A DNA stretch of 64,000 nt, taken from contig NZ_LWHM01000008.1 of assembly GCF_001642735.1 (NCBI RefSeq), positions 1 to 64,000 on the forward strand. The letters are read 5' to 3'. Below, piece after piece: positions 1-64,000 of the stretch; the stretch's first letter is position 1, and each line of letters begins with the position of its first letter. A program made the position numbers and the translations under genes. The notes under the pieces were generated by a model that saw only the letters and a list, made by a program, of their open reading frames with translations, searched no databases and was not told where the DNA came from. This DNA is from Pseudohongiella nitratireducens (GTDB lineage Bacteria; Pseudomonadota; Gammaproteobacteria; Pseudomonadales; Pseudohongiellaceae).

Positions 1-790
1 GTCCTCGTTTTATCGGGTGCTCAAAGAAAAAGGACAGCTACACCACAGAGGCAAGGCACATGCGCCGCAACGTAAAACGGCACTGAGCACACATATTGCC
101 AGAGCGCCGTGCCAGGTGTGGGTTTGGGATATAACCTATCTCGCCTCCCAGGTCCGTGGTCAGTTTTTCTACTTGTACATGTTCATGGACGTGTACAGCC
201 GGAAAATCGTTGGCTACGAGGTGTATGAGGTGGAATGCGGTGAGCATGCGGCAGCACTATTGCAGCGCTCACTTTTAAGTGAGCAGTGCTTTAACACGCC
301 GCTGGTTCTGCACTCCGACAATGGTTCGCCAATGAAGTCTCAGACACTGAAAATAAAACTGGAAGAGCTAGGCGTGATGCCATCGTACAGCCGGCCGCGA
401 GTGAGCAACGACAATGCTTATGCAGAGTCGGTGTTCCGAACATTGAAATACCGACCACAGTGGCCGTCAAACGGGTTTGTGGATCTGACAGCAGCCAGGC
501 AATGGGTTGAACGGTTTATCTACTGGTACAACCATGAACACAAGCACAGCAAGATCCGGTTTGTGACACCGCAGCAGCGGCACAGTGGTCAGGATCAGAC
601 GATACTGAACAATCGTAAAGAGATCCTGGAGCGAGCAAAACTGAATACGCCGTCACGTTGGGGTAGTCGACCAACCAGGAACTGTACGCCGGTCGGAGCA
701 GTGTGTTTGAATCCGGAAAGAGACGATCAGATTATCAGTGCGGAGAAACAGGCCGCGTGAAGAAAAAGGTGTCAACTATCTTGAAAAACA
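1..790 (+). mobile_element. IS3-family element, 3' part (cut by window start)
   Basis: The window opens inside an IS3-family transposase gene, and the element ends shortly after its stop codon. The terminal stretch at about 769-790 reads, on the opposite strand, TGTTTTTCAAGATAGTTGAC. This resembles the end of the IS at 56009-57653 (TGTTTGTCAGCATAGTTGTC), so the two belong to one group of related but non-identical elements. The left end and any target duplication lie outside the window. Confidence 0.8.
2..760 (+). CDS. IS3-family transposase OrfB, C-terminal part (5' truncated by window)
   Basis: Integrase-core (rve) DDE transposase that cuts and joins the ends of its own IS. The frame is open from base 2 and begins SSFYRVLKEKG, so the true start is upstream. 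The three acidic residues of the DDE triad sit in VWVWDITYL, LHSDNGSPMK and DNAYAESVFRTLKYRP. Its sequence is clearly related to the OrfB at 56039-57091, sharing SYSRPRVSNDNAYAES and WYNHEHKHS. It precedes the defence island and may mark its left border. IS group is not assigned because only the OrfB end is visible. Confidence 0.88.
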   Translation, partial: SSFYRVLKEKGQLHHRGKAHAPQRKTALSTHIARAPCQVWVWDITYLASQVRGQFFYLYMFMDVYSRKIVGYEVYEVECGEHAAALLQRSLLSEQCFNTPLVLHSDNGSPMKSQTLKIKLEELGVMPSYSRPRVSNDNAYAESVFRTLKYRPQWPSNGFVDLTAARQWVERFIYWYNHEHKHSKIRFVTPQQRHSGQDQTILNNRKEILERAKLNTPSRWGSRPTRNCTPVGAVCLNPERDDQIISAEKQAA

Positions 791-793
791 CCG

Positions 794-875
794 CCGCCAG
801 GGCGACCCCGTGAGGGGTGAGGCCCAGGGCAAATTTTTGCTCCTGCAAAATTTGCATTTCCGCCATCCCTGGCGG
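794..875. repeat. Nested palindromic intergenic element
   Basis: The outer arms CCGCCAGGG (794-802) and CCCTGGCGG (867-875) are perfect reverse complements. They enclose two further perfect hairpins: ACCCC (805-809) with GGGGT (814-818), and GCAAATTTT (829-837) with AAAATTTGC (847-855). The whole can fold as a multibranched, cloverleaf-like structure. There is no T-run, so it does not look like a simple intrinsic terminator. It lies just outside the IS end and may be a REP-like or miniature mobile element. No second copy was seen in the window. The remaining stretch to hsdR (876-1146) shows no gene. Confidence 0.6.
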
Positions 876-1146
876 TCAGATGGGCCGAATCATCCCGCGA
901 ATTGAGTTTAAAATATCGATTAAGTTATGGGCTGTGAAAGGCATGGGGTTTTTTGTTTGTCTAATGATCTAGTGGCTGCGAGACAAGACGTCGGCACTTT
1001 CAGGCGGCCTTTAGTGACTGATTTTACAGTATGAGGCCACTAAATAGAGTGTCATGGAAATTGCTGGTATATTGCTCAATCATGCTTAGTGCCAGATTTC
1101 ACCAGGAAAATTGGCTCTGATTTCTAGATTGGCTGGATAGAGCGCC

Positions 1147-3591
1147 ATGGACAAAAAGCAGTTTTCAGAAACGGATATCATCAGCAAGTTTATTCTGCCC
1201 GCCGTGGAAGACGCCGGGTGGGACAAAATGACGCAAATCCGCCAAGAGGTGAAGCTGCGCGATGGCAAGGTGATTGTGCGCGGCCAGATGGGCATGCGCA
1301 AGACTGTTAAGGCCGCTGATATTGCCCTGTACCACAAGCCCAATTTTCCCCTGGCAGTGATTGAGGCAAAGGCCAATAAGCACGAGGTGGGGAAGGGCAT
1401 GCAACAGGGACTGGATTATGCCCGTCTGCTGGACGTTCCCTTTGTGTTTGCCAGCAATGGCGATGGTTTTATCTTTCACGACAAAACCAACCCCGACGCA
1501 CTTGAGATTGAAATCAGCTTGCAAGATTTCCCAAGCCCAGAGACCCTATGGCACAAGTTCTGCGCCTATAAGGGTTATACCGACGCTCAGCTGCCGATTA
1601 TCCAGCAGCCCTACTATGACGACGGCAGTGGCAAATCGCCGCGGTACTATCAATTACAGGCCATTAACAAAACCATTGAGGCCGTCAGCAGCGGACAAGA
1701 TCGTGTGCTGCTGGTGATGGCCACCGGCACCGGTAAAACCTACACCGCCTTTCAAATTATCTGGCGGTTGTGGAAGGCGCGACAGAAAAAGCGCATCCTG
1801 TTCCTGGCCGATCGCAATGTACTGGTGGATCAAACCCGCATTAACGACTTTCAGCCGTTCGGCGAAGCCATGACCAAAATCACCAAGCGCACGGTTGATC
1901 CGGCCTACGAGGTGCATCTGGCCCTCTATCAAGCTTTAACCGGCCCTGAAGAACATCAAAAAGCCTACAAGCAGGTCGATCCGGATTTTTTCGATTTGAT
2001 TGTCATTGACGAGTGCCACCGCGGCTCCGCCGCCGAAGACAGTGCCTGGCGAGAAATACTGGAATACTTCAGCGCTGCTACTCAAATCGGTTTAACGGCC
2101 ACACCCAAAGAAACCGAAGCTGTCTCCAACACCGACTACTTTGGCGATCCGGTATACACATACTCGCTCAAAGAGGGCATTGAAGACGGCTTTCTCGCCC
2201 CCTACAAAGTCGTGCGCGTGGATATAGACATCGACGTAGAAGGCTGGCGCCCCACCAAAGGCCAAACCGACAAACAGGGCGAGGTGATTAAAGACCGCAT
2301 TTACAACCAAAAAGACTTTGATCGCACCATGGTCATCGACGAGCGCACCGAACTGGTAGCCGAAACCATCACCAACTACCTCAAGCGCACCGACCCCATG
2401 GCCAAAACCATTGTCTTTTGTAACGACATTGACCATGCAGAACGCATGCGCCGGGCCCTGGTAAACCTAAGTCCGGAGCAAGTTGCCAAAGACGACAAAT
2501 ACGTGATGAAAATCACCGGTGACGATGCCACCGGCAAGGCCCAGTTGGATAATTTTATCAACCCCAAGAAAGCCTACCCGGTCATCGCCACTACCTCCGA
2601 GCTGATGACCACCGGGGTGGACGCCAAAACCTGCAAACTGGTGGTGCTGGATCAGAACATCCAGTCCATGACGAAATTCAAACAAATTATCGGTCGCGGC
2701 ACCCGCATTGACGACCGATACAACAAGCTCTGGTTTACCATCCTCGACTTTAAAAAAGCCACCGAGCTATTTGCCGACGAACGCTTTGACGGTGTGCCCG
2801 AGAAAATACTGGTCACGAATCCCGACGAAATTAACGACCCGGATAACACCGACATTGAAGATGCCTTAAACGACCCAACCAACCTCAATGAGGACGATTA
2901 CCCGGCAGACGAGACCGGTAATACAGGCGAAATCAGTGAAGGCGAGTGGCCAGACTACGGCGCAGACCAGACTGTTGTAGGTGGCCCCATTGAGGACGGG
3001 GAAGGCAGCGAATATATTAAATACCACGTCTCCGGCGTCACCGTTAAAAAGCTGGATGAACGTGTGCAGTATTACGATGCCGACGGCAAGCTGGTTACCG
3101 AATCGTTCAAAGATTACACCCGTAAAGCCGTGCAGCAGCAGTTTGCCTCGCTGGATGAATTCATCAATAAATGGAACACTGCCGACCGCAAGCAGGCGGT
3201 CATGGATGAATTGGCCGAACAGGGTGTTATTTGGGAGGCGCTGCGCGAGGACGTAGGCCGCGACCTGGATGCCTTTGACCTGATCTGTCACGTCGCATTC
3301 GACCAGCCACCATTAACCCGACAAGAGCGGGCCAATAACGTTAAAAAACGTAACTACTTTGGCCAATACTCTGGCACCGCTCGCGCCGTGCTAGAGGCCC
3401 TGCTGGAAAAATACGCCGATGCCGGTATCCCCGAAATCGAGAGCATGAATGTGCTGAAAGTCCAGCCTATCAACCAATACGGCTCGCCGCTGGAAATCGT
3501 GAAGCAAGGCTTTGGCGGCAAACCCAAATACCAAGAGGCTGTCGCCGACCTGGAGCGCCAGCTCTATCAAGACGACAACAAAAGCGCCTAA
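1147..3591 (+). CDS. hsdR: Type I restriction enzyme, R (restriction/translocase) subunit
   Basis: Motor and nuclease subunit of a type I restriction-modification complex; it translocates DNA with ATP and cuts unmethylated foreign DNA. The N-terminal nuclease motif is visible as Asp58 in AADIALYHK and Glu73-x-Lys75 in VIEAKA. A superfamily 2 helicase follows, with Walker A MATGTGKT (about residue 190), DECHRG (about 288) and LTATP (about 318), then a helicase C domain with IIGRGTRID. The C-terminal part resembles the EcoEI-type R C-terminal domain. At 814 residues it fits the shorter EcoEI-like R subunits rather than the roughly 1,000-residue EcoR124 or EcoKI types. It starts the operon hsdR-hsdM-hsdS-darT-darG, all on one strand. 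No frameshift or missing motif was seen. Confidence 0.93.
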
Positions 3592-48179: not shown

Positions 48180-49342
<1,163 letters not shown>

Positions 49343-50110: not shown

Positions 50111-51188
<1,078 letters not shown>

Positions 51189-51800: not shown

Positions 51801-51850
51801 TTTACACTCCCACGTTGTTCACTGATCCTGATAATACTCCTACCCTTTTA

Positions 51851-51888
51851 GGGGTCGTTTGCGGGAGAGGGCGAAATGACACCCGAAG
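51851..51888 (+). repeat. Left terminal inverted repeat of the copper transposon
   Basis: 38 bp starting GGGG, matching the right end at 35 of 38 positions. It is preceded by the target duplicate TTTTA. Confidence 0.95.
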
Positions 51889-52146
51889 GGTAGCGTCTAT
51901 TGCAGAAATTCAATTAAAAAGGATGCCCTCAGTAGTTATCTTTTTTAGACATCCAAATGGAATCGGCCATAGGACATAAATGTAAGCCAAATTGATATTC
52001 AGCCCCCTCTCTCAATGGTCAACACAGCTCACAAGTATTGTCTGTGAGAAAGGACTCGCCCTCTTAGGTGACTAACAGGTTCCGCATATCAGTGAACGCG
52101 GACAATAAAGTCCAACCATTTAGACTCATGCCCCAACCAAAACAGT
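51889..52146. other. Non-coding left end of the transposon
   Basis: About 260 bp without a credible gene. A short CTCACA/TGTGAG hairpin lies near 52030-52050. It holds the region downstream of the copper operon; no T-rich terminator was recognised. Confidence 0.4.
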
Positions 52147-52614
52147 CTAAAGTCCCGACGGCAACGAAACACCGACGCCGAATTCATAGACGAGTTGACC
52201 ACCAAAATAAGCAGTTGTGACGATCAGTCCTGCAATCGCCAGCTCGAATACCACTGCACCCCAGCAGAGGCGCCTCGATAGAACGGTGCCTCGCCACCAA
52301 ATAACTGCGCGTAGCAGCCCCCAAGCAACTAAGACACCTGCTGCAATGTGTCCGAACTCCTCATGCGTTTCTAATATCGCAAGGGACGTACCGTTGGCCA
52401 GCGCGACATCGAGCGCAAGGTCACCAAAAACAAAAGCTACTGCGGCGGCCAGCCCCGCGCCTAGCCCGAGTCCAGCCGAGATATTAGCAATAGCGCCACG
52501 ACCATCGAGGGACAACCCTCGAAAAACAACGACCAAATCGAACATTGCGAGCAATAGTGCAAAGACGATTGGGAAATGCACGACCAATGGGTGGATTTGT
52601 TCAATCGGTAACAT
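52147..52614 (-). CDS. DUF2231 membrane protein of the copper module
   Basis: Four predicted membrane helices and the DUF2231 start LPIEQIHPLVVHFPIVFALL, with a conserved histidine pair in the first helix that could bind metal or haem. Such proteins occur beside copper and cytochrome genes; the function is not established. The ATG at 52614 is used, with GGGAG upstream, giving 155 residues. It follows copB by 46 bp as the last gene of the copper operon. Confidence 0.78.
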   Translation of the reverse strand: MLPIEQIHPLVVHFPIVFALLLAMFDLVVVFRGLSLDGRGAIANISAGLGLGAGLAAAVAFVFGDLALDVALANGTSLAILETHEEFGHIAAGVLVAWGLLRAVIWWRGTVLSRRLCWGAVVFELAIAGLIVTTAYFGGQLVYEFGVGVSLPSGL

Positions 52615-52660
52615 TGGGTACAACTCCCATCAAATAATTAGAATGTTCGGTATGCACGAG

Positions 52661-53425
52661 TTAGAACCACACTCTAAAGCCGGCAACCAATGCCAGATTA
52701 TCAACGTCTCCGCCTTCAGCGCGTGTCAGATCAGCCGTGTCGCCATATTGGCGCTTCCAGCTGACGCCAATATATGGAGCGAATTCTCGACGAACTTCGT
52801 AACGCAATCGCAGACCTAGTTGCACATCATTCAACCCGCTACCGACGCCAAATCTAGGTACTGAACTGGCTGCAATATTGGTTTCAAATCGAGGTTGCAG
52901 TATGAGGCGTTGCGAGAACAACAGGTCGTAAGTGCCTACTAATCTAGCCGAGACGTCGCCATCCTCGCTGATAAAGAGGGCGGGCTCGACTTCGAATCGA
53001 TAAGGCGCTAAACCTTGGACGCCCAGCACCGCAAAACTGCGATCCTGATCGGGGCCAGAGCCATACTGTCGGTCATAGCGCAGGCCGACCTGCAAATCCC
53101 AAAACGGCGCGATCATTCGGCTATAGAGCGCTTGAAGTTCCAACTCGCCGCCGTTTGCTGATGTTTGGTCGTCACCTTCAAATTTCATCCACAGTTTGTT
53201 GGTGTCGGTGCCATACCAGCCCTGCATATCCCAGCGAAGCGTATCGGCGCCGTCGTTGTCGCGATACTCGAACTGGTCTACGATGATCATACCGAACGAT
53301 AAGTTGTCTTCAACGGGTTCCGGCCAACCGGATTCCTCAGCGAAAGCAAAGCTATTGATAATTATCAAAAAGCTGCCTAGCACAATTCGAATCGAGGGGG
53401 ATGTGGTGAGCAATTGATTATCCAT
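52661..53425 (-). CDS. copB: CopB family outer-membrane copper resistance protein
   Basis: Beta-barrel protein of the CopB/PcoB family. It has a signal peptide (IRIVLGSFLIIINSFAFA), then directly the barrel region with NLSFGMIIVDQFEYR, DLQVGLRYDRQYG, RLILQPRFETNIAA and LGLRLRYEVRREFAPYIGV. The Met/His-rich N-terminal segment present in many CopB proteins is missing. The start at 53425 overlaps the copA stop by 8 bp (ATGGATAA), showing tight coupling. With this start the protein has 254 residues. Confidence 0.9.
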   Translation of the reverse strand: MDNQLLTTSPSIRIVLGSFLIIINSFAFAEESGWPEPVEDNLSFGMIIVDQFEYRDNDGADTLRWDMQGWYGTDTNKLWMKFEGDDQTSANGGELELQALYSRMIAPFWDLQVGLRYDRQYGSGPDQDRSFAVLGVQGLAPYRFEVEPALFISEDGDVSARLVGTYDLLFSQRLILQPRFETNIAASSVPRFGVGSGLNDVQLGLRLRYEVRREFAPYIGVSWKRQYGDTADLTRAEGGDVDNLALVAGFRVWF

Positions 53426-55196
53426 TGCGGTTCTCCGATGACACTGCATCATTGGTCACCGACACCACTCGAAACATACCCATGTCCATGTGATACAACA
53501 GGTGGCAGTGGAAGGCCCAGTTGCCGGGGGCATCTGCACTGATCAGCGCGGTCAGCCGCTCACCAGGCTTCACGTTGAGGGTGTGTTTGCGCGGCCGGTA
53601 TTCACCGGCGCCATTCTCGAGTTCCATCCACATACCGTGCAGGTGAATCGGATGTTCCATCATGGTGTCGTTGACCAGCACCAAGCGCAGGCGTTCGCCA
53701 TACTTAAAGTGGACAGGACCATCCACTTCAGAAAACTTTTTACCATCGAACGACCACATGTACCGATCCATCACGCCGGTCAGGTGCAATTCTACTTCGC
53801 GTTCCGGAGGCCGTTGATCGGGATACGGCGACAGGCTGCGTAAATCGGTGTACACCAACACGCGACGGCCATTGTTCTCCAGTCCGTTGCCCGGTTCGCT
53901 CAGGCGATTACTCGGAAATTCCGCGACCATCGTATTGCCTTTACCGTGACGGTCCGGGCCATGCTTTACTGGCGATGATGCTGTTGACATGCCAGTGCCA
54001 TTGCGTGACATGTCCATACTGCCCATCGTCTGTTTCTTAGCAGACATTTCACCTGGCATCGCCATCGCACCCATGCCCATATCCTTCATTGTGCGCACAG
54101 GACGATTGCCTAGCGGCGGTATTGCTGCCTCGAGCCCTGCTTTGGATGCCAGGGTTCCGCGCGCAAAACCGCTGCGGTCCATGGAGGCTGCGAAAATCGT
54201 GTATGCCGCCTCGTCGACAGGCTCGACAATGACGTCATAGGTTTCCGCCACGCCAATTCGAAATTCATCAACAGCGACCGGCTGAACATTCTGCCCGTCT
54301 GCTTGTACCACGGTCATTTTCAGTCCCGGGATGCGGACATCAAAGTAACTCATCGATGCGCCGTTGATAAACCGCAGGCGTATGCGCTCTCCCGGCCGAA
54401 ACAAGCCTGTCCAATTGGAATCTGGCGCCATTCCGTTCATTAAATAGGTATAGGTAGCACCGCTAATGTCGGCGATGTCTGTCGGCGCCATCCGCGATCG
54501 CGCCCAGACCATGCGTTCTCGAACCGTTTTACCCCAACCGTTCTCTTCAGCATCGTTAAACAACTCAGGTACCGTGCGCCGTTGATAGTTGTAGTAATCG
54601 CTTTGCTTCTTCAGTTTCTTCAGAACGCTCATTGGGTTCTCAAACGTCCAGTCAGAAAGCATGACCACGTATTCCCTGTCATAAGCAAACGGCTCCGGGT
54701 CAATCGGATCAATAATTAGCGGCCCATAGTGACCTTGCTGTTCCTGCAACCCAGAATGGCTGTGATACCAGTACGTGCCGCTTTGTTTGACAGGGAATGC
54801 ATAGCGAAACGTCTCGCCCGGTTTGATGCCTGCATAGCTAACACCGGGGACACCATCCATTTCATAGGGGACCAGTAAGCCATGCCAGTGAATGGAGGTG
54901 TCTTCATCCAGTTGATTCGTGACCCGCATAACCGCGTCCTGCCCTTCTTTTAGGCGGACAAGCGGACCTGGAATGGAGCCACTGATCGTCACCGTATCGC
55001 CCAACCGCCCGCCAATATCAAGGGGCTGACGGGTAATATTGAGATCAATCGGGCGGGTTGCTTGTTCGGGACTTAAGCCTAAGGTTTCTACGGCAAAAGC
55101 CGGGACCAAAGAATTGAGCCCAAGGATTGCACCTGTAGCACCCGCTTGCGTTATAAAGCGGCGTCTTGATTTCGAATACATCGTTTGGTTGTTCAT
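53418..55196 (-). CDS. copA: CopA family multicopper oxidase (copper resistance)
   Basis: Periplasmic copper-tolerance oxidase. It has a twin-arginine signal peptide (KSRRRFITQAGATGAILG). The copper sites are visible: HWHGLLVPYEMDG, YWYHSHSG, HPIHLHGMWME and HCHLLYHMDMGMF, together giving the type 1, 2 and 3 ligands. A Met-rich stretch (MKDMGMGAMAMPGEM, then MGSMDMS) probably binds extra copper. The ATG at 55196 follows GGAG and is preferred to a TTG 15 bases upstream. The 592 residues are normal for CopA/PcoA. It is separated from the small upstream gene by 100 bp. Confidence 0.95.
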   Translation of the reverse strand: MNNQTMYSKSRRRFITQAGATGAILGLNSLVPAFAVETLGLSPEQATRPIDLNITRQPLDIGGRLGDTVTISGSIPGPLVRLKEGQDAVMRVTNQLDEDTSIHWHGLLVPYEMDGVPGVSYAGIKPGETFRYAFPVKQSGTYWYHSHSGLQEQQGHYGPLIIDPIDPEPFAYDREYVVMLSDWTFENPMSVLKKLKKQSDYYNYQRRTVPELFNDAEENGWGKTVRERMVWARSRMAPTDIADISGATYTYLMNGMAPDSNWTGLFRPGERIRLRFINGASMSYFDVRIPGLKMTVVQADGQNVQPVAVDEFRIGVAETYDVIVEPVDEAAYTIFAASMDRSGFARGTLASKAGLEAAIPPLGNRPVRTMKDMGMGAMAMPGEMSAKKQTMGSMDMSRNGTGMSTASSPVKHGPDRHGKGNTMVAEFPSNRLSEPGNGLENNGRRVLVYTDLRSLSPYPDQRPPEREVELHLTGVMDRYMWSFDGKKFSEVDGPVHFKYGERLRLVLVNDTMMEHPIHLHGMWMELENGAGEYRPRKHTLNVKPGERLTALISADAPGNWAFHCHLLYHMDMGMFRVVSVTNDAVSSENRNG

Positions 55197-55296
55197 TGTT
55201 CGCTCCAACAAATAATCTTGGTTGCTTGCGCGCTATCCCGGCGTAAAAAGCACGCCCTGGCGGAATAACTTAGTTTTGGAAATTGGCACTATCCAG

Positions 55297-55725
55297 TCAA
55301 TGACGACGATAGGCCACTGACATCAAAAAGTTGGCAGGCAAATTCAGCAGGCGATCATAACGATGAACTGGCGAATCGACTGTTCTCTGAGGCGGAACAT
55401 GCTCGCGTGCCGAGTTCGAAGTGACCTGCGCTTGAGGCCATATGGATTCACTGAATTTGAATACAGCGACAAGATTGTCGTCGAGGTCATCGATGCGCGT
55501 CGTCGGTTGGAGGGCATCCTGTTGGAGATGCTCTGTGGCATTAACCGCACAATGGGTAAAGCAATGGTCATAAGAACACTCACCATCGCACGGTCCACCA
55601 TCGACTGAATGATGCGCATGTTCGTCTATCCCTGTGCTTGCATTTGCATAGCACACCCCGACACCCGCGCCTAAGACCAAGGGGAGGACCAGAAACGAAG
55701 ATATAAAAAGGCGGAGGATCGACAT
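55297..55725 (-). CDS. Small secreted Cys/His-containing protein, first gene of the copper operon
   Basis: A 142-residue protein with a signal peptide (MSILRLFISSFLVLPLVLGA) and a mature part carrying clustered potential metal ligands: DEHAHHS, then GECSYDHCFTHCAV. I do not recognise the family with certainty; CopL-like or DUF2946-like accessory proteins are possible. A periplasmic copper-binding role is inferred from the ligands and the place at the head of copA-copB. The ATG at 55725 lies about one base after the start point predicted from the promoter below, so the message may be leaderless. Confidence 0.65.
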   Translation of the reverse strand: MSILRLFISSFLVLPLVLGAGVGVCYANASTGIDEHAHHSVDGGPCDGECSYDHCFTHCAVNATEHLQQDALQPTTRIDDLDDNLVAVFKFSESIWPQAQVTSNSAREHVPPQRTVDSPVHRYDRLLNLPANFLMSVAYRRH

Positions 55726-55732
55726 GCTTGCC

Positions 55733-55761
55733 ACTATATACTCCCCGGTAGTATTTAACAA
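55733..55761 (-). promoter_or_regulatory. Promoter of the copper operon with operator in the spacer
   Basis: On the minus strand TTGTTA (-35, 55761-55756) and TATAGT (-10, 55738-55733) are separated by exactly 17 bases. The imperfect palindrome at 55738-55754 fills this spacer, so a bound repressor would cover the promoter. Confidence 0.65.
55738..55754. promoter_or_regulatory. Candidate CsoR operator (copper operon side)
   Basis: ATACTCCCCGGTAGTAT is a 17-bp palindrome with one mismatched pair. It shares spacing and arms with the perfect palindrome at 55855-55871. GC-centred palindromes with AT ends are typical of CsoR operators. Confidence 0.65.
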
Positions 55762-55854
55762 GACCAAGCGATTAGGGTTAAAATCATTCAATCTTGGCTG
55801 CGCATCAACGGTCACGTGAGAACTCGAGACTGATATCAAGCTGATGGTCGTTGT

Positions 55855-55871
55855 ATACTCCTAAGGAGTAT
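55855..55871. promoter_or_regulatory. Candidate CsoR operator (csoR side)
   Basis: ATACTCCTAAGGAGTAT is a perfect 17-bp palindrome (7-bp arms, 3-bp centre) located 20 bp before the csoR ATG, suited to autoregulation. No good -35/-10 pair could be fixed around it. Confidence 0.65.
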
Positions 55872-56038
55872 GTCGACCGAGTGATAACACCATGTCCAAC
55901 CTTGAAAAATCAGATTTGCCCGCCTCTCGAAAAGCGATTTCGAGGCGCCTTAAGCGAATCGAAGGTCAAGTCCGCGGCGTAGATCGAATGCTGGAACAAG
56001 GTCGCTACCGCTGTTTGTCAGCATAGTTGTCGTGTTTT

Positions 56039-57091
56039 TTACGCAGCGGCCTCTAAGCTGCGACTCTCCTTCTCAGGATTCAACCAGACCTCTTCTGGCA
56101 AATCCCAATTCCGAGTTCTCCCCGACCAGCGCTTCGGATTGGCTGCTTTCGCGGCCTCGTAAACGGCCTTTCGCTGTTGTATGACTTCTGTCGTCTGGCC
56201 ACTATGCCGTTGCGCCGGAGTGATGAACTTCAACCCGCTGTGCTTGTGTTCCTGGTTATACCAGGTCGCAAATTGGAGTACCCAGGCCCGGGCATCGCCC
56301 AGTGTTGCAAAGCCTTTGTAAGGGTAATCAGGGCGGTACTTGCACGTTCGGAAGATCGACTCAGCATAGGCATTATCGTTACTGACCCGAGGGCGGCTAT
56401 AGGACGACATGATACCCAGTCGGTACAGGGTTTCCATCAGTGACGCGCCTTTCATCGGGCTGCCGTTGTCCGAGTGCAGAACCAGGTGTACACCGGCAAT
56501 ACCCTCACGTAAATACGCCTTGGTTACCAGTTCTGACGCCAGTTCACTGGACTCTCCCTCATGGATTTCCCAGCCCACAATCTTGCGGCTGTACAGGTCG
56601 AGGATGAGGTACAGGTAGAAGAAGATTCCTTTGGCAGGACCGGGCAACCAGGTCACGTCCCAACACCACACCTGATTCGGGCCGGTGGCACAGTGCGTGT
56701 TGAGTGGCTTGGCGGTCGGTGCCTTACTGCGGCCCCGGTGCTGCTGTTGGCTCTGTTCACGAAGCACACGATAGAACGTGGACTCAGAGGCGATAAAGCA
56801 CCCTTCATCCGCCAGGGCCGGTACAATCTGGCTGGGTGGCAGGCTTCTGTGTACTGGGCTATTCACGGCGACCAGCACGGCCTCGCGCTCTTGCTGTGTC
56901 AGTTTGTGAACCGGTGGCGGACGGGTCGCACCAGGGCGACCATCTGCCTTAACATCCCCCTCCCGGGTCCAGCGCTGATAGGTGCGCATGGCTATGCCCA
57001 TTTCTGCGCACGCCCTGAAGGTCCGGGCACCAGCATCGGTTGTTTCCTTGATCAGCCTGACGGCTCGCTCGCGATCTGGGGTGCTAATCAT
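56039..57091 (-). CDS. IS3-family transposase OrfB
   Basis: DDE transposase of 350 residues with an N-terminal helix-turn-helix (RTFRACAEMGIAMRTYQRW) and the integrase core. Catalytic positions are in VWCWDVTWL, LHSDNGSPMKG and DNAYAESIFRTCKYRP. Its ATG overlaps the orfA stop (ATGA). No internal stop was seen, so it is probably intact. It shares many motifs with the truncated OrfB at the left edge of the window. Confidence 0.93.
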   Translation of the reverse strand: MISTPDRERAVRLIKETTDAGARTFRACAEMGIAMRTYQRWTREGDVKADGRPGATRPPPVHKLTQQEREAVLVAVNSPVHRSLPPSQIVPALADEGCFIASESTFYRVLREQSQQQHRGRSKAPTAKPLNTHCATGPNQVWCWDVTWLPGPAKGIFFYLYLILDLYSRKIVGWEIHEGESSELASELVTKAYLREGIAGVHLVLHSDNGSPMKGASLMETLYRLGIMSSYSRPRVSNDNAYAESIFRTCKYRPDYPYKGFATLGDARAWVLQFATWYNQEHKHSGLKFITPAQRHSGQTTEVIQQRKAVYEAAKAANPKRWSGRTRNWDLPEEVWLNPEKESRSLEAAA

Positions 57092-57585
57092 TCGTCCTCT
57101 CCCTCGCCCCAGATCGCATGCATCTTTTTTCGAAGCACCAGTAACGCAGCGGTTTCCGCCAGCGCCTTCTCTTTATGACGCAGATCGCGCTTCAGCTCCT
57201 TGATCTCTTTCTTCGCCGATCGAGCCTGATCCCGCGCTGACCTGGCCTGTTCTACTGCCGTGGCATTGGCGTGCATGCAAACCTCTTTCCACGCCAGTAT
57301 CTGCTCCGCATACAGCCCCTTCTTGCGGCAGTACTCGGCCACCTCCGCCTCGTTCAGAGCGGCGGTCTCCAGCACGACTGCAAACTTGTCTTCGGGCGAC
57401 CAACCTTCCGGATTCCTTCCATCCCCTGGCACTACCATCCCTCCTGATCGGGCTTGTTTGCGCCAATGATACAGGGTCACGTCGGAGATTCCCGTCTCTT
57501 CTGATAGCACGCGTACCGGGGTGTTTTCTGGCGGCATCATTCTTCTAAGCACCGCCTGCTTGCGTTCTTCTGGGTATTGTTTCAT
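57088..57585 (-). CDS. IS3-family transposase OrfA
   Basis: DNA-binding component of 165 residues, longer than most IS3 OrfA proteins. It starts QYPEERKQAVLRRMMPPEN with a helix-turn-helix (VRVLSEETGISDVTLYHWRK) and ends in a long charged coiled coil (QARSAKKEIKELKRDLRHKE). It overlaps orfB by 4 bp, allowing coupled expression. Confidence 0.9.
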   Translation of the reverse strand: MKQYPEERKQAVLRRMMPPENTPVRVLSEETGISDVTLYHWRKQARSGGMVVPGDGRNPEGWSPEDKFAVVLETAALNEAEVAEYCRKKGLYAEQILAWKEVCMHANATAVEQARSARDQARSAKKEIKELKRDLRHKEKALAETAALLVLRKKMHAIWGEGEDE

Positions 57586-57865
57586 TGCTCATTCCTGAGC
57601 GCCCCCCGAGTATTAATTGAAAATTGGACACGACAACTATCCTGACAGAGGGGGCTACTGTGTCGACATCTTGCAACAAATTCAGGCCACGAAAGCCGCG
57701 TTGAAAAAAGTTGAAACCGAACTTCTACGTGATCATGCAAATTCCTGTATTGAAGGTGCACTTAGAGAAGGCTCTTTGGATGAGCAAAGAGATAAGATCG
57801 TTGAACTCGTCGATCTGTTTGAACGAGGTCGCTGAGGGTCTGGTACCGAGAAAAAGTGCCTGCGT

Positions 57866-58471
57866 CTAGGCCGCCTCGCGTGAGCGTTTTACAATCTCAG
57901 AGACCGTGTTCTTGCTAATACCGAGATCCCGTGCAATCCATCGATAGCTCTTACCTTGTTCAATGAGGTGAAGCACTTTAGGTGAAAGTTTGTCGGATTT
58001 TGGGCGGAAGCCCTTCTTTCGGCCCAGCTTTTTGCCGCGAGCTTTTGCTGCAGCAAGACCGGATTTTACGCGTTCACTAATTAAATCACGTTCAAATTCT
58101 GCGATGCCGGATAGAAAGGTTGCCATCATCCGACCATGGGATGTCGATAGATCAAAGGTCATGCCGCTTATGGCGACCACCGAGACTTTCCAGTTTTCCA
58201 GGTCGCGGAGCGTGTTGAGCAGGTCGATGGTTGATCGACCCCATCGAGACAATTCTGTCACGACTACCGCATCGATTTCCCGGCGTTGCGCCAAGGCCAT
58301 AATTTTCTTTCGTTCTGTGCGATCCAATTTCGCACCTGACCCCGTTTCCTTGAAAACTCCAATGACGTCGTAGTTCGCTCGTTTAGCGAATGCTCGAAGA
58401 TCGCGTGCCTGCCGCGCACACGATTGATCAGCTGTCGACACTCGACAATAAATGGCTACCCGGTGTCCCAA
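57866..58471 (-). CDS. tnpR: Tn3-family serine resolvase TnpR
   Basis: Serine recombinase that resolves transposition cointegrates at res. The nucleophile Ser12 lies in IYCRVSTADQ, followed by VVVTELSRWGRS and FLSGIAEFERDLISERVK, then a C-terminal helix-turn-helix (SYRWIARDLGISKNTVSEIV) for res binding. Initiation is at a TTG with AGGTAGG upstream. Its 201 residues are normal. It is divergent from tnpA with 94 bp between, where res is expected. Confidence 0.93.
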   Translation of the reverse strand: MGHRVAIYCRVSTADQSCARQARDLRAFAKRANYDVIGVFKETGSGAKLDRTERKKIMALAQRREIDAVVVTELSRWGRSTIDLLNTLRDLENWKVSVVAISGMTFDLSTSHGRMMATFLSGIAEFERDLISERVKSGLAAAKARGKKLGRKKGFRPKSDKLSPKVLHLIEQGKSYRWIARDLGISKNTVSEIVKRSREAA

Positions 58472-58557
58472 TTAAACCTACCTCTCTTCATGGCTTGCAA
58501 AGCCGCATGTTTACTGGCTGGATTGGTGTCCTGTTTAGCCTTTAGTTTAACTGGGAC
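58465..58557. promoter_or_regulatory. Probable res site between tnpR and tnpA
   Basis: GTCCCAATTAAAC (58465-58477) and GTTTAACTGGGAC (58545-58557) are inverted copies with one mismatch, bracketing the divergent start region. Their position is where Tn3-type resolvases bind. The sub-site structure could not be resolved further by eye. Confidence 0.55.
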
Positions 58558-58565
58558 AGTATCGC

Positions 58566-61454
58566 ATGCCAAGACGCACCATTCTGACCGAACGACAACG
58601 GGAAGCACTGTTCGGATTGCCAGCGGATGAAGACTCGATGCTCCGCCACTACGTGTTGAGTGACGAGGACATGCAGCATGTCAAAACAAGGCGACGCCCC
58701 GGCAACCGATTGGGTTTCGCATTGCAGCTATGTGCCTTGCGGTATCCCGGTCGACTACTCCAACCAGGCGAATTCATCCCAGACCCAATTATCAAATTTA
58801 TTGGGGCGCAACTGGGTTTGTCGAAAAGCGACCTTGCCGACTATGCGGAGAGACGGCAGACACGCTATCAGCATTCGGTGTCGCTCCAGAATCTATACGG
58901 CTATCGAACTTATCAGGCTTCTGACCTAGATTTCGCCCAGTGGCTGGCATCAGCCGCTGAACAGGCCCACTCTAACGAAGGGTTGGCACGCGAAGTGGTC
59001 GCCCAAATGCGCCTTCGGCGCATTGTTGTACCGGCACCTTCAACGGTTGAACGATTGTGTGCAGATGCTCTGGTCGCCGCCGACAATCGTATCTCTAGGC
59101 GCATCGCGGATCGTCTCGACAACACCACAGTGGACAGACTCACCGCATTGCTCAGCGAAACAACGGTGACAGGCGTCACCCGATTCGTCTGGTTGCGCCA
59201 ACACGAACCGGGCAGCAACTCACGGGTGGTCAATGGGTTGCTCGATCGGCTGGAACGGATCGTTGATTTGGAACTCAGCCCTTCTTTGCTTCAGGGTGTG
59301 CCCTCGCACAGAGTAGCCCGCCTTCGTCGCCAGGGTGAACGCTACTATGCCGATGGCATGCGTGATCTACCTACGCATAGAAAACTGGCGATACTAGTCG
59401 TCTGTGGTGTTGAATGGCATGGCGCAATCGGTGACGCCATCGTCGAAACCCATGATCGAATTGTGGGTCGGCTGTACCGTGCTTCTGAGCGTGTTAGAGA
59501 TGATCAAATTAACGATCAACGTGCGCTCATCCAACAAACACTCAAAACTTTTTCCGAAGTAGGCGCATCGATCATCGCGGCGCGAGAAGCCGGCGAGCCC
59601 GTCGACACAGCCATTGAACAGGATTGCGGCTGGGAGGTATTCAATCGCCTGGTCGAAGATGCCACCGCTGTGAATGCCAAAGTTGGAGCCGATCCTCTGG
59701 ATTTTGTGAACAGTGGCTACGCTAGATTTCGTCGCTATGCACCACGGTTTCTGAACACACTCGCGATCGAAGGTGCGCAGTCAGCAGGACCGATACTCAA
59801 AGCAATTAACGCACTCCAACAACTGAACCGATCGAATAATCGGGGGTTACCAAACAATCTACCGATAGCCTTCGCTAGACCCAAATGGCGAAAGAGGTTG
59901 CAGCGCACAGACCGTCGAACTTGGGAAACTGCGATTCTTTTCGCTATTCGCGATGCATTTAGGGCAGGCGACATCTGGTTAAAAAATAGCCGTCGATATG
60001 CAGAGCCATCGAAAGAGTTGATACCGGTTAACGCCGTTGCAACGTCATCAGCACTGGCAGTACCGTTGGACCCTCTCGACTGGTTAACGCAACGGAAACA
60101 GGTGCTGGCTCAAGCATTTGAAGCCACAGGCGAAGCCGCACGCCGTGACCGGCTACCAAACGGGCTAATTCAAGACGGCGTACTCAAACTCTCCAAATTG
60201 GAGAAACAGGCGCCCGACAATGCCCATCAGCTAGTCATGGATTTGTACCGGCGTGTACCGCAAACACCGGTCACTGACATTCTGTTGTCGGTAGACCGTG
60301 AAATCGGGTTTACAGAAGCTTTCACAGATTTGCGAACAGGAGCGCCGTGTCGTGACCAAATCGGGCTCCTAACCGTACTACTCAGTGACGGCGTCAATTT
60401 GGGCCTTCGCAAGATGGGTGCCGTATCTACCACGCATTCTTTCTGGGAGTTGCTTAGGATTTCTCGGTGGCACGTACAAGACGATGGCTATCGGCAAGCA
60501 CTTGCGATGATCGTAGACGCGCAAAGTCGACTGCCTATGTCCAAAGTCTGGGGGCCCGGAGAGTCCGCGTCGGCCGATGGTCAATTCTTCCGAGCCTCAG
60601 GGCCTGGCGAAGCCATGAATGTGGTGAACAGACGCTATGGCATAGACCCAGGGATAAAGGGGTATACCCATGTCTCCGATCAGTATGCTCCGTTCTCGAC
60701 GCAAGCGATTCCGGCAACAGCACACGAAGCGCCTTATATTCTCGACGGACTGTTGTCGAATGACGCCGGACGGCGAGTGAAGGAACAATATGCAGATACC
60801 GGTGGGTTTACCGATCATGTGTTCGCCATGTGCTCACTGCTGGGCTACCGTTTTGCACCTCGTATTCGCGATCTACCGGCGAAACGCCTGTATGCATTTA
60901 ATCCAAGCGAGGTACACAAGACACTGAGGCCGTTGGTTGCGGCCAAGATCAACGAAGACCTTATCGTACGCAATTGGCCCGACATCCTCCGGTTATCAGC
61001 AAGTGCAGCGGCAAACACAGTGAAACCCAGTCAGCTCTTAAAACGACTATCTGCTTACCCGCGACAGAATGAACTGGCTGTCGCCCTACGTGAGATCGGT
61101 CGAGTTGAACGATCGTTGTTTATGATGCAGTGGATGTTGGACGCTGAGTTGCAACAGCGCGTACAGATGGGGCTCAACAAAGGTGAGTCACACCACGCCC
61201 TAAAGCGCGCAATCAGTTTTCATCGTCGAGGTGAGATTCGTGATCGATCCTCTGAGGGACAACACTATCGAATTGCTGGGATGAATCTCATTGCGGCAAT
61301 CATTATCTATTGGAACACCAAAAAGCTGGGGGAAATTGTCGAGACACTCACCAATGCCGGTGAGGCACCAAATCCCGATCTACTGCCCCATGTATCCCCT
61401 CTGGGGTGGGAGCATATCAATCTAACTGGTGAATACCATTGGCCCGATGCTTAG
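58566..61454 (+). CDS. tnpA: Tn3-family transposase TnpA
   Basis: Large replicative DDE transposase (962 residues) with an N-terminal DUF4158 region (PRRTILTERQREALFGLPAD) and the Tn3 catalytic domain. Candidate catalytic residues are Asp in SASADGQFF, Asp in QYADTGGFTDHVFAMCSLLG and Glu in NKGESHHALKRAIS. The gene is uninterrupted. Its stop codon lies inside the right terminal repeat, showing that the element ends exactly behind its transposase. Confidence 0.96.
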   Translation: MPRRTILTERQREALFGLPADEDSMLRHYVLSDEDMQHVKTRRRPGNRLGFALQLCALRYPGRLLQPGEFIPDPIIKFIGAQLGLSKSDLADYAERRQTRYQHSVSLQNLYGYRTYQASDLDFAQWLASAAEQAHSNEGLAREVVAQMRLRRIVVPAPSTVERLCADALVAADNRISRRIADRLDNTTVDRLTALLSETTVTGVTRFVWLRQHEPGSNSRVVNGLLDRLERIVDLELSPSLLQGVPSHRVARLRRQGERYYADGMRDLPTHRKLAILVVCGVEWHGAIGDAIVETHDRIVGRLYRASERVRDDQINDQRALIQQTLKTFSEVGASIIAAREAGEPVDTAIEQDCGWEVFNRLVEDATAVNAKVGADPLDFVNSGYARFRRYAPRFLNTLAIEGAQSAGPILKAINALQQLNRSNNRGLPNNLPIAFARPKWRKRLQRTDRRTWETAILFAIRDAFRAGDIWLKNSRRYAEPSKELIPVNAVATSSALAVPLDPLDWLTQRKQVLAQAFEATGEAARRDRLPNGLIQDGVLKLSKLEKQAPDNAHQLVMDLYRRVPQTPVTDILLSVDREIGFTEAFTDLRTGAPCRDQIGLLTVLLSDGVNLGLRKMGAVSTTHSFWELLRISRWHVQDDGYRQALAMIVDAQSRLPMSKVWGPGESASADGQFFRASGPGEAMNVVNRRYGIDPGIKGYTHVSDQYAPFSTQAIPATAHEAPYILDGLLSNDAGRRVKEQYADTGGFTDHVFAMCSLLGYRFAPRIRDLPAKRLYAFNPSEVHKTLRPLVAAKINEDLIVRNWPDILRLSASAAANTVKPSQLLKRLSAYPRQNELAVALREIGRVERSLFMMQWMLDAELQQRVQMGLNKGESHHALKRAISFHRRGEIRDRSSEGQHYRIAGMNLIAAIIIYWNTKKLGEIVETLTNAGEAPNPDLLPHVSPLGWEHINLTGEYHWPDA

Positions 61455-61487
61455 GGTGTCATTTCGCCCCCTCCCGCAAACAACCCC
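61450..61487 (-). repeat. Right terminal inverted repeat of the copper transposon
   Basis: 38 bp ending CCCC, reverse-complementary to the left end except for three positions, followed directly by the target duplicate TTTTA. Confidence 0.95.
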
Positions 61488-61529
61488 TTTTATATCTTGA
61501 TCATACGTGTATCTCAGCGTCATAATATA

Positions 61530-61545
61530 CTGTACATATATACAG
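61530..61545. promoter_or_regulatory. LexA box upstream of umuD
   Basis: CTGTACATATATACAG fits the CTGT-N8-ACAG LexA consensus perfectly, with the preferred AT alternation. It lies 16 bp before the umuD ATG. Without the transposon it would sit about 90 bp upstream of divergent yedK, so it may have controlled both. Confidence 0.92.
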
Positions 61546-61561
61546 TTTTATAGACCATACT

Positions 61562-61969
61562 ATGATCAAATTCATTCCTATTGCCGCCCAAGCCGGGATT
61601 ACTGGCTTTGAGTCCCCAGCAGCTGAATACACGCAGCTGGACTTGTCATTGGATAAAATTCTCATTGACCACCCTTCAGCCACGTATCTTGGCTTTGTAG
61701 AAGGTGAATCAATGACAGGCGTGGGTATATTCCCCAATGACCTGTTGATCGTCTCAAGGGCTGAGACGGTCAATACAGGGGATGTGATAGTTGCGACTCT
61801 CAACGGTGTGTTTGTCTGTAAGATCGCGGACACCAAGAATAAGCAACTGATTTCATACTCAAAACGGCATAAAAAGTACCAGCTTACAGATGGTGATGAG
61901 TTTATTGTTGAGGGTGTAGTGACACGCTCTATCCGGCTTCACAGGCCGCTTAAAAAGGGTTTCACCTGA
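61562..61969 (+). CDS. umuD: UmuD, SOS mutagenesis protein
   Basis: LexA-like serine protease homologue that self-cleaves to UmuD' and then forms DNA polymerase V with UmuC. The catalytic dyad is Ser50 (VEGESMTG) and Lys87 (FVCKIAD), spaced 37 residues as in E. coli. The cleavage site is probably Ala11-Gly12 in AAQAGITGFE. At 135 residues it is complete. The stop overlaps the umuC ATG (TGATG). It is controlled by the LexA box just upstream. Confidence 0.95.
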   Translation: MIKFIPIAAQAGITGFESPAAEYTQLDLSLDKILIDHPSATYLGFVEGESMTGVGIFPNDLLIVSRAETVNTGDVIVATLNGVFVCKIADTKNKQLISYSKRHKKYQLTDGDEFIVEGVVTRSIRLHRPLKKGFT

Positions 61970-62689: not shown

Positions 62690-64000
62690 TTATTCGATCT
62701 CCAGCTCGAAAGCCATTGGTTTAAATTTCTTGGACAAATCAATTTCGAAGCTGCCCAGTCTACCAAGGTGCTCTGCGTGGTATGGCGAGAAGCTGGCCAT
62801 GTGCTCTCGGGTAATGCTGTGCCCTTCTGCCTTCAATTGGTTAAAGACCTCCGTCATTGCATTCACGTTGTAAAGAATCGCAACATTGGCAAGTAAGTGA
62901 TTGTATTTCACGATCTTGCTCTGCTCATGCCTGAGGTTTGCGCTGATCTTCCCACCGTTGGCAAAAAACAACCAGCGCGCAAATTCGTTGAACTCTTCAC
63001 TCTTACATGTGGCGGCCTGAATCGTCCTCCGCAGGTCAAGGTCGGTAACATAGTCCAGCAAAAACATGGTTCTGACGACCCTTCCCAGTTCCCGAAATGC
63101 AAAGTACAGCTTATTCTTGCGGTTTTTGGTGCCAAATCGCCTGAGAATGGTCGACGCGGTGATCTTGCCCGTTTTTACCGACATGGCGGTCCTCATCATA
63201 TCGGGGTAATGCGTCTGAATGAGCTCCCACCGAATGGGATCGCTGAATAGCGATTGGATATGCTGTAACACCAGTCCCCTGTCTGACTTGTAGAACGTTA
63301 GGTCTTTGATGTTGCGGATGCGAGGCATCAGTTTAATGCCCAGCAGGGAGGCCAACCCGAACACCGGCGTTGACTGCGCCTGAGTGTCGCCGTGCACGGT
63401 ATCCGGATTGAAGTCGGATTTGTCGTTCAAGAGACCATCGAGAATGTAGATGGCCTCGTAAACACCGCACGGAATGAACCGGCTGAACAATGCAATATAG
63501 GTATCGGAGACATGGTAGTAAGCGATACCCCCGTAACTGCCGTATCGCAGATGGTATTCAGACAGCAGATTGTCCTCGTACAGGTCCCAAAGCTTGCCAT
63601 CAGCAGAAACGCTGTTGCCTGAGCCCCAACACTCAATTAGGCCGTACTTCTTGTAAGCGTTGTTGACCTTGGCGATGGCCTTATCAAGGCGCTCTTCGGT
63701 CGTCCTTTTGAGACTGATCCAGGCGATCTGTTTGCGGGATATGCCTTTCACTGACCGGGCCGTTTCTGTCGGTCCGATGTTGGTTCCGTAGCAGAACAAC
63801 GTCAGTACAAAGCGTAGAAAAGGGTCGTCGATACGTGAATCAAAGCCGGATAGCGGTCCGAATTGGTGATTCAAATTAAGCCATTTCTCCACGGTGATGG
63901 CCAGATCAAGCAGGTTAATCTTCTCCAGGCGATCTTTAAGCAAGGCAGAAATGGCTTCAATTTCGGGCGGCGGATCATCGGTTTTGGCTTTACCAATAAC
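62690..64000 (-). CDS. Second Tn3-family transposase, C-terminal part (cut by window end)
   Basis: The frame is open to the last base of the window, so the N-terminal half of the protein lies outside. The Tn3 catalytic domain is present: VSADGKLWDL, a conserved GDTQAQSTPVFGLASLLG with PRIRNIKDL, and KSEEFNEFARWLFFANGGK with the final glutamate. It is quite different in sequence from the transposase of the copper element, so it is a separate transposon. Its outer end, beyond the stop codon, should lie near 62620-62640 where umuC breaks off; I could not fix the repeat without the other end. Confidence 0.92.
   Translation of the reverse strand, partial: VIGKAKTDDPPPEIEAISALLKDRLEKINLLDLAITVEKWLNLNHQFGPLSGFDSRIDDPFLRFVLTLFCYGTNIGPTETARSVKGISRKQIAWISLKRTTEERLDKAIAKVNNAYKKYGLIECWGSGNSVSADGKLWDLYEDNLLSEYHLRYGSYGGIAYYHVSDTYIALFSRFIPCGVYEAIYILDGLLNDKSDFNPDTVHGDTQAQSTPVFGLASLLGIKLMPRIRNIKDLTFYKSDRGLVLQHIQSLFSDPIRWELIQTHYPDMMRTAMSVKTGKITASTILRRFGTKNRKNKLYFAFRELGRVVRTMFLLDYVTDLDLRRTIQAATCKSEEFNEFARWLFFANGGKISANLRHEQSKIVKYNHLLANVAILYNVNAMTEVFNQLKAEGHSITREHMASFSPYHAEHLGRLGSFEIDLSKKFKPMAFELEIE

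Follow-up and report, generated by a model that had tools for sequence, protein, structure and literature searches.

The window, by which we mean the whole 64-kb stretch of DNA analysed here, contains a Tn3-family transposon in which a set of copper-resistance genes stands divergent from a csoR gene that is split by an IS3-family insertion sequence (Table 1). The transposon ends in inverted repeats identical at 35 of 38 positions (51851-51888 and 61450-61487), and TTTTA is repeated on its two flanks (51846-51850 and 61488-61492); inverted repeats of about 38 bp starting GGGG and a 5-bp target repeat are typical of the Tn3 family. From these ends and the gene content, we conclude that the copper genes and csoR are cargo of the transposon, and that the insertion sequence (IS) is a second, nested insertion; csoR most likely came in with the transposon. 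The enclosing transposon, like the two putative operator palindromes discussed below, goes beyond the original prediction made for this DNA, which had called one gene of the operon copA. That gene is indeed a copper-resistance gene, but its product is a periplasmic multicopper oxidase of the TIGR01480 type and not a P-type ATPase.

Table 1. Features of the transposon, its copper module and the nested insertion sequence
Feature	Position	Strand	Remarks
Tn3-family transposon with copper module	51851..61487		9,637 bp including the IS; ends, target repeat, transposase
DUF2231 membrane protein	52147..52623	-	PF09990
CopB	52661..53452	-	PF05275, positions 2-208 of 208
Multicopper oxidase, copper-resistance type (PcoA/CopA)	53418..55211	-	TIGR01480, 844.6 bits against 478.95
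Small Cys/His-rich ORF	55297..55725	-	142 aa; first gene 3' of the leftward promoter-like site
Putative CsoR box 1, ATACTCCCCGGTAGTAT	55738..55754		within the leftward promoter-like site, hexamers 55761-55756 and 55738-55733
Putative CsoR box 2, palindrome ATACTCCTAAGGAGTAT	55855..55871		8-base arms fully complementary; overlaps the -10-like hexamer 55854-55859 before csoR
csoR, 5' part	55892..56008	+	39 codons
Target repeat GCTAC, left copy	56004..56008		
IS3-family insertion sequence	56009..57653	-	1,645 bp; ends, target repeat, transposase match
IS orfB	56039..57091	-	rve domain; NF033516, 189.7 bits against cut-off 160
IS orfA	57088..57585	-	HTH_Tnp_1; 4-base overlap with orfB
Target repeat GCTAC, right copy	57654..57658		
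csoR, 3' part	57659..57835	+	58 codons plus stop
Serine resolvase of the transposon	57866..58471	-	PF00239
Tn3-family transposase	58566..61454	+	NF033527, 956.1 bits against 500; PF01526

The small ORF has no match in NCBIfam, and the longer form of its frame (55297-55839) has none in Pfam. Its N-terminus gives it the look of a secreted protein, and it is possibly a new periplasmic copper-binding protein.

By eye, we observed an IS3-like two-ORF element and a partial second transposase copy to the left of the transposon (48180-49342 and 50632-51018), and beside it on the other side a second Tn3-type transposase-like ORF, which lies on the minus strand and runs off the window (62690-64000). Further along the contig (L163) there is a CadR/PbrR regulator that scores over its cut-off, together with CDF-like and RND-like genes that score below theirs. 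Given these genes and the second Tn3-type ORF, the region looks like a metal-resistance island.

The interrupted csoR gene and its insertion sequence

The interruption of csoR consists of exactly the IS and one copy of GCTAC; it follows codon 39 and falls directly before the first copper ligand. The 5' part reads on into the IS and meets a stop after 44 residues, as had been noted from the sequence. Each half matches PF02583 above the Pfam cut-off of 22.8 bits (37.7 and 47.1 bits), and together they cover positions 2-28 and 29-77 of the 78 in the profile, with neither gap nor overlap. Since the halves pass singly and occupy adjoining profile positions, nothing was lost or duplicated at the joint. 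The original prediction that the halves rejoin in one frame once the IS and one GCTAC copy are removed is borne out by these adjoining matches and by the exact repeat.

The read-through protein has 97 residues and retains all 18 of the residues that are invariant in 14 intact relatives, with which it shares 31-53% pairwise identity. It also has the predicted pattern C-x24-H-x3-C, at residues 40, 65 and 69; the pattern recurs in all 14 relatives, and the copper ligands of Staphylococcus aureus CsoR are Cys41, His66 and Cys70 (PMC6191537). Its best match in the PDB is a CsoR (4m1p, E 9.8e-22); InrS and other CsoR structures come next. No NCBIfam model was over its cut-off: RicR came nearest (73.4 bits against 175), and FrmR (37.1 against 133) and RcnR (33.3 against 138) were also under, so that we do not class the protein as RicR, FrmR or RcnR. 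Because no NCBIfam equivalog matched, we call it CsoR-type by its ligand pattern and context. That CsoR function has been lost in this genome is strongly supported.

The terminal inverted repeats of the IS are identical at 19 of 20 aligned bases. Its orfA alone scores 40.1 bits against NF033516, under the cut-off of 160; fusion of the two frames into OrfAB by a -1 frameshift is usual in the IS3 family. Given a perfect target repeat, open IS reading frames, csoR halves undecayed at the invariant sites and intact boxes, the insertion fits a recent event, and the suggestion to that effect in the original prediction agrees with what we see. The IS in csoR is the sole copy found in the 3.4-Mb assembly, which contains six further matches (65% over 429 bp). 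We also observed that one IS fragment, which resembles the IS in csoR at 65%, recurs at six contig ends (the starts of contigs C29-C33 and the end of C8), so that breaks in the assembly coincide with a repeated IS.

CsoR boxes and other copper regulators

Palindromes of the form ATAC-N9-GTAT occur twice in the window, both times in the intergenic stretch that separates csoR from the small ORF. Three promoter-like sites were found in the stretch 55600-56100, where shuffled sequence gave 0.7 on average. Box 1 sits in the spacer of the leftward site, which measures 17 nt, and box 2 overlaps the -10-like hexamer of a rightward site, so that each box touches a promoter-like hexamer; the best-scoring site, TTAACA-18-TAAAAT on the plus strand (55755-55784, 10/12), overlaps neither box. 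The boxes are similar to the published CsoR box of Bradyrhizobium, TATACCCCTACCGGGTATA (PMC5057107).

Of the 14 intact csoR genes, 13 have a palindrome of this form in the 200 nt before them, against 5 of 3000 shuffled upstream sequences, and in a control set it precedes 1 of 71 oxidase loci that have no csoR match (L094). Seven of the csoR loci counted (L010-L016) come from the 18 PF02583 loci outside our own genome; L017-L019 and L021-L027, in which the csoR 3' half was unmatched, were excluded, as was L020 despite a 38% match. Eight of the best 80 of 371 oxidase loci have a csoR match, and one of these, a 49-aa piece (L068), was left out of the count; the other 72 formed the control, less one with under 300 nt of upstream sequence. 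Intact csoR without a box was found at L012. At L073, L080 and L084 the box lies immediately before the csoR start codon, nearer than in the window. From this conservation, we infer that CsoR binds these boxes.

A scan of the whole genome for the box returned 6 sites at up to two mismatches, against 3 for a reversed control, and a looser form of the box returned 4 sites at up to one mismatch, against none. Five near-box sites lie outside the transposon, two with one mismatch (C1 and C24) and three with two (C10, C13 and C28). We rejected all five as likely CsoR targets since each is inside a reading frame, and control by CsoR thus seems limited to the transposon. The site on C10 may stand just before what seems the more probable start codon of a small frame unrelated to copper; with two mismatches and this location, it could still represent a target outside the transposon.

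A second intact csoR acting on the same operators would count against derepression, as the original prediction had pointed out, and none was found: in the assembly (34 contigs, estimated 100% complete, a missing replicon being possible) the csoR halves are the sole PF02583 matches. None of 14 congeners has a match, and CsoR was found in 6 of 137 genomes of the family, our own included. The genome encodes three heavy-metal P-type ATPases over the TIGR01525 cut-off. Of the two inspected, one lies beside CueR (152.1 bits against a cut-off of 147.4) and the other beside a MerR-type regulator that is under all NCBIfam cut-offs. A second copAB-type oxidase (TIGR01480; contig C23, L162:2049-7059), accompanied by an ORF that is CopB-like by position, is divergent from a CopRS-type pair. 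As the chromosomal copper genes examined adjoin MerR/CueR-type or CopRS-type regulators, only the transposon's operon should be affected; the same is expected from the transposon-borne nature of csoR and the lack of a back-up CsoR in the assembly.

Relatives of the transposon and its module

A copy of the transposon with uninterrupted csoR, which had been put forward as a check, was not found in the collections searched, and the intact state was seen in csoR homologues only. Megablast of 52000-61600 against the 'plasmids' collection gave 2 records, whose matches extended over 2% and 1% of the query. When the transposon was compared with 95 genomes, our own included and up to three candidates per genome scored, the best match outside our genome was 74% over positions 322-3196. 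The transposase protein reached 59.3% identity over its whole length in the 15 plasmid matches listed; at least 5000 plasmid records matched, and of the 5000 counted, 370 were 60-80% identical over an unspecified part and none was higher. Among 369 genomes of the class, 6 (including our own) had the transposase at E<=1e-100, the best of the others at 59%. The csoR read-through protein matched 788 plasmid records, all below 60% identity, and an exact 30-base probe for the empty site had no match in 'viral_contigs'.

A scan of 'genome_contigs' for the oxidase, by exact short peptides and then tblastn, gave 371 loci, and among the best 80 the nearest were 79% and then 65% identical. The former belongs to the closest oxidase-CopB-DUF2231 module in that set, in a metagenome-assembled genome of the same family (L031). 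Nothing in the 8-kb flank upstream of this module matches csoR, and the first 500 nt upstream contain no box. The pairing of csoR with the module is therefore not universal, and an oxidase-CopB-DUF2231 module can exist without an adjoining CsoR; constitutive expression of the module may cost little. A csoR-like piece in another genome (L025 in G056, positions 1-34) looked like a second interrupted csoR, but its contig is 5 kb long and its frame enters an unrelated gene there; we set it aside as probably a fragment, a misassembly or foreign sequence.

Proposed derepression and comparison with known systems

We consider it probable that a CsoR-regulated module borne on the Tn3-family transposon has had its repressor destroyed by the later IS, leaving a constitutive copper operon, with the effect limited to the transposon. 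The transposon would have imported a self-regulated module into the genome, in which csoR faced an operon of the small ORF, multicopper oxidase, CopB and DUF2231 genes and each promoter had one CsoR box; the IS would then have inserted into csoR. With CsoR absent, both boxes would be unoccupied, so that the operon would be expressed with or without copper. This reading is based on the intact boxes at two promoter-like sites and on a published csoR deletion in Bradyrhizobium, after which transcription was high and uncontrolled in the absence of copper and the strain tolerated 2.4 mM copper in place of 2.0 mM (PMC5057107). To this extent the expectation that csoR loss derepresses the copper genes is supported; the accompanying statement that copper resistance is probably locked on was too wide, since it should hold for the transposon's operon only. 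Weighing against the main reading are the best-scoring promoter-like site, which lies off both boxes, the module of L031 with neither csoR nor box upstream, the csoR of L012 that has no box, and the near-box site on C10.

Insertion may also have altered transcription directly. The ORFs of the IS run leftwards, towards the copper operon and on the strand that it uses. A search of 55600-57900 for terminator-like sites found none, where 1.9 would be expected from shuffled sequence, so read-through from the IS may add to expression of the operon. One leftward promoter-like site lies within the IS (56436-56409) and none was found spanning its left end; any input from the IS would therefore be read-through. 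Were transposase read-through the main effect, with loss of CsoR secondary, the shared strand, the lack of a terminator and the internal promoter-like site would all be accounted for, but the missing site at the left end and the usual weakness of native IS3-family transposase promoters tell against such an explanation, which we regard as quite improbable. A combined version, in which the IS made an inducible, Tn3-borne, CsoR-controlled oxidase/CopB cargo constitutive through CsoR loss together with read-through, and was favoured under chronic copper exposure, strikes us as rather doubtful; these genes are usually known under CopRS.

The operon might instead still be regulated in spite of csoR loss, if the resident CueR, or the CopRS-type pair divergent from the second copAB, also controlled its promoter. 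Both regulators are encoded in the genome; however, the transposon spacer and the chromosomal copA-copR spacer have no 16-mer in common at 13 or more matching positions, the transposon spacer has no TGACA-type palindrome, and the leftward promoter-like site lacks the long spacer of MerR-type promoters. We judge this kind of control unlikely. Still less credible is a role for a fragment of CsoR: an open frame from a TTG in the IS end (57617) would give the 3' half as a product of 72 aa with the three copper ligands, which might repress or interfere, but it would be without the N-terminal stretch, where 7 of the 18 invariant residues lie (residues 19-33), and no plus-strand promoter-like site was found between 55860 and 57617. 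We give this last explanation hardly any weight.

The locus is a natural csoR knock-out in which both boxes, the promoter-like sites, the effector genes and the transposon ends look intact; the repressor-loss hypothesis is thus directly testable. The locus also documents, on a transposon, a CsoR-box divergon before oxidase and CopB copper genes. In the open-licence literature, as covered by titles and the openings of abstracts, we recognised neither a csoR interrupted by an IS nor a pcoA/copA-type oxidase under CsoR control on a Tn3 element. Five of the comparison loci (L010, L011, L013, L014 and L016) resemble the window in having csoR, a divergent oxidase gene and a box between them, but their csoR is uninterrupted and its product 42-53% identical; in larger stretches of three such divergons (L164-L166), an ORF of CopB size follows the oxidase, as judged by position and length. 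The copAB and pcoAB systems regulated by CopRS, of which the host chromosome has a copy, share the effector oxidase type (TIGR01480) and differ in that they are activated by a two-component system, whereas the window has a CsoR repressor.

CueA, the target in the Bradyrhizobium csoR-cueA divergon, we take to be a P-type ATPase. In B. liaoningense, as in the window, csoR is divergent from its copper target and a box of the TATACCC...GGGTATA type lies over the promoters, and deletion of csoR derepresses both genes (PMC5057107). There, however, csoR was deleted by the experimenters and the target is CueA, and the portions of that report drawn on here do not mention an IS in csoR (PMC5057107). An IS inside the repressor gene of a tolerance operon is known from Pseudomonas putida S12, where disruption of srpS by ISS12 or ISPpu21 makes the operon constitutive; srpS is a different repressor, it controls a solvent efflux pump, and in that case the effect on expression was reported (PMC5658596). 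The breaking of a repressor by an IS, with a constitutive tolerance operon as the outcome, is thus a familiar route, and the event that we propose for the transposon's csoR is of an already known kind.
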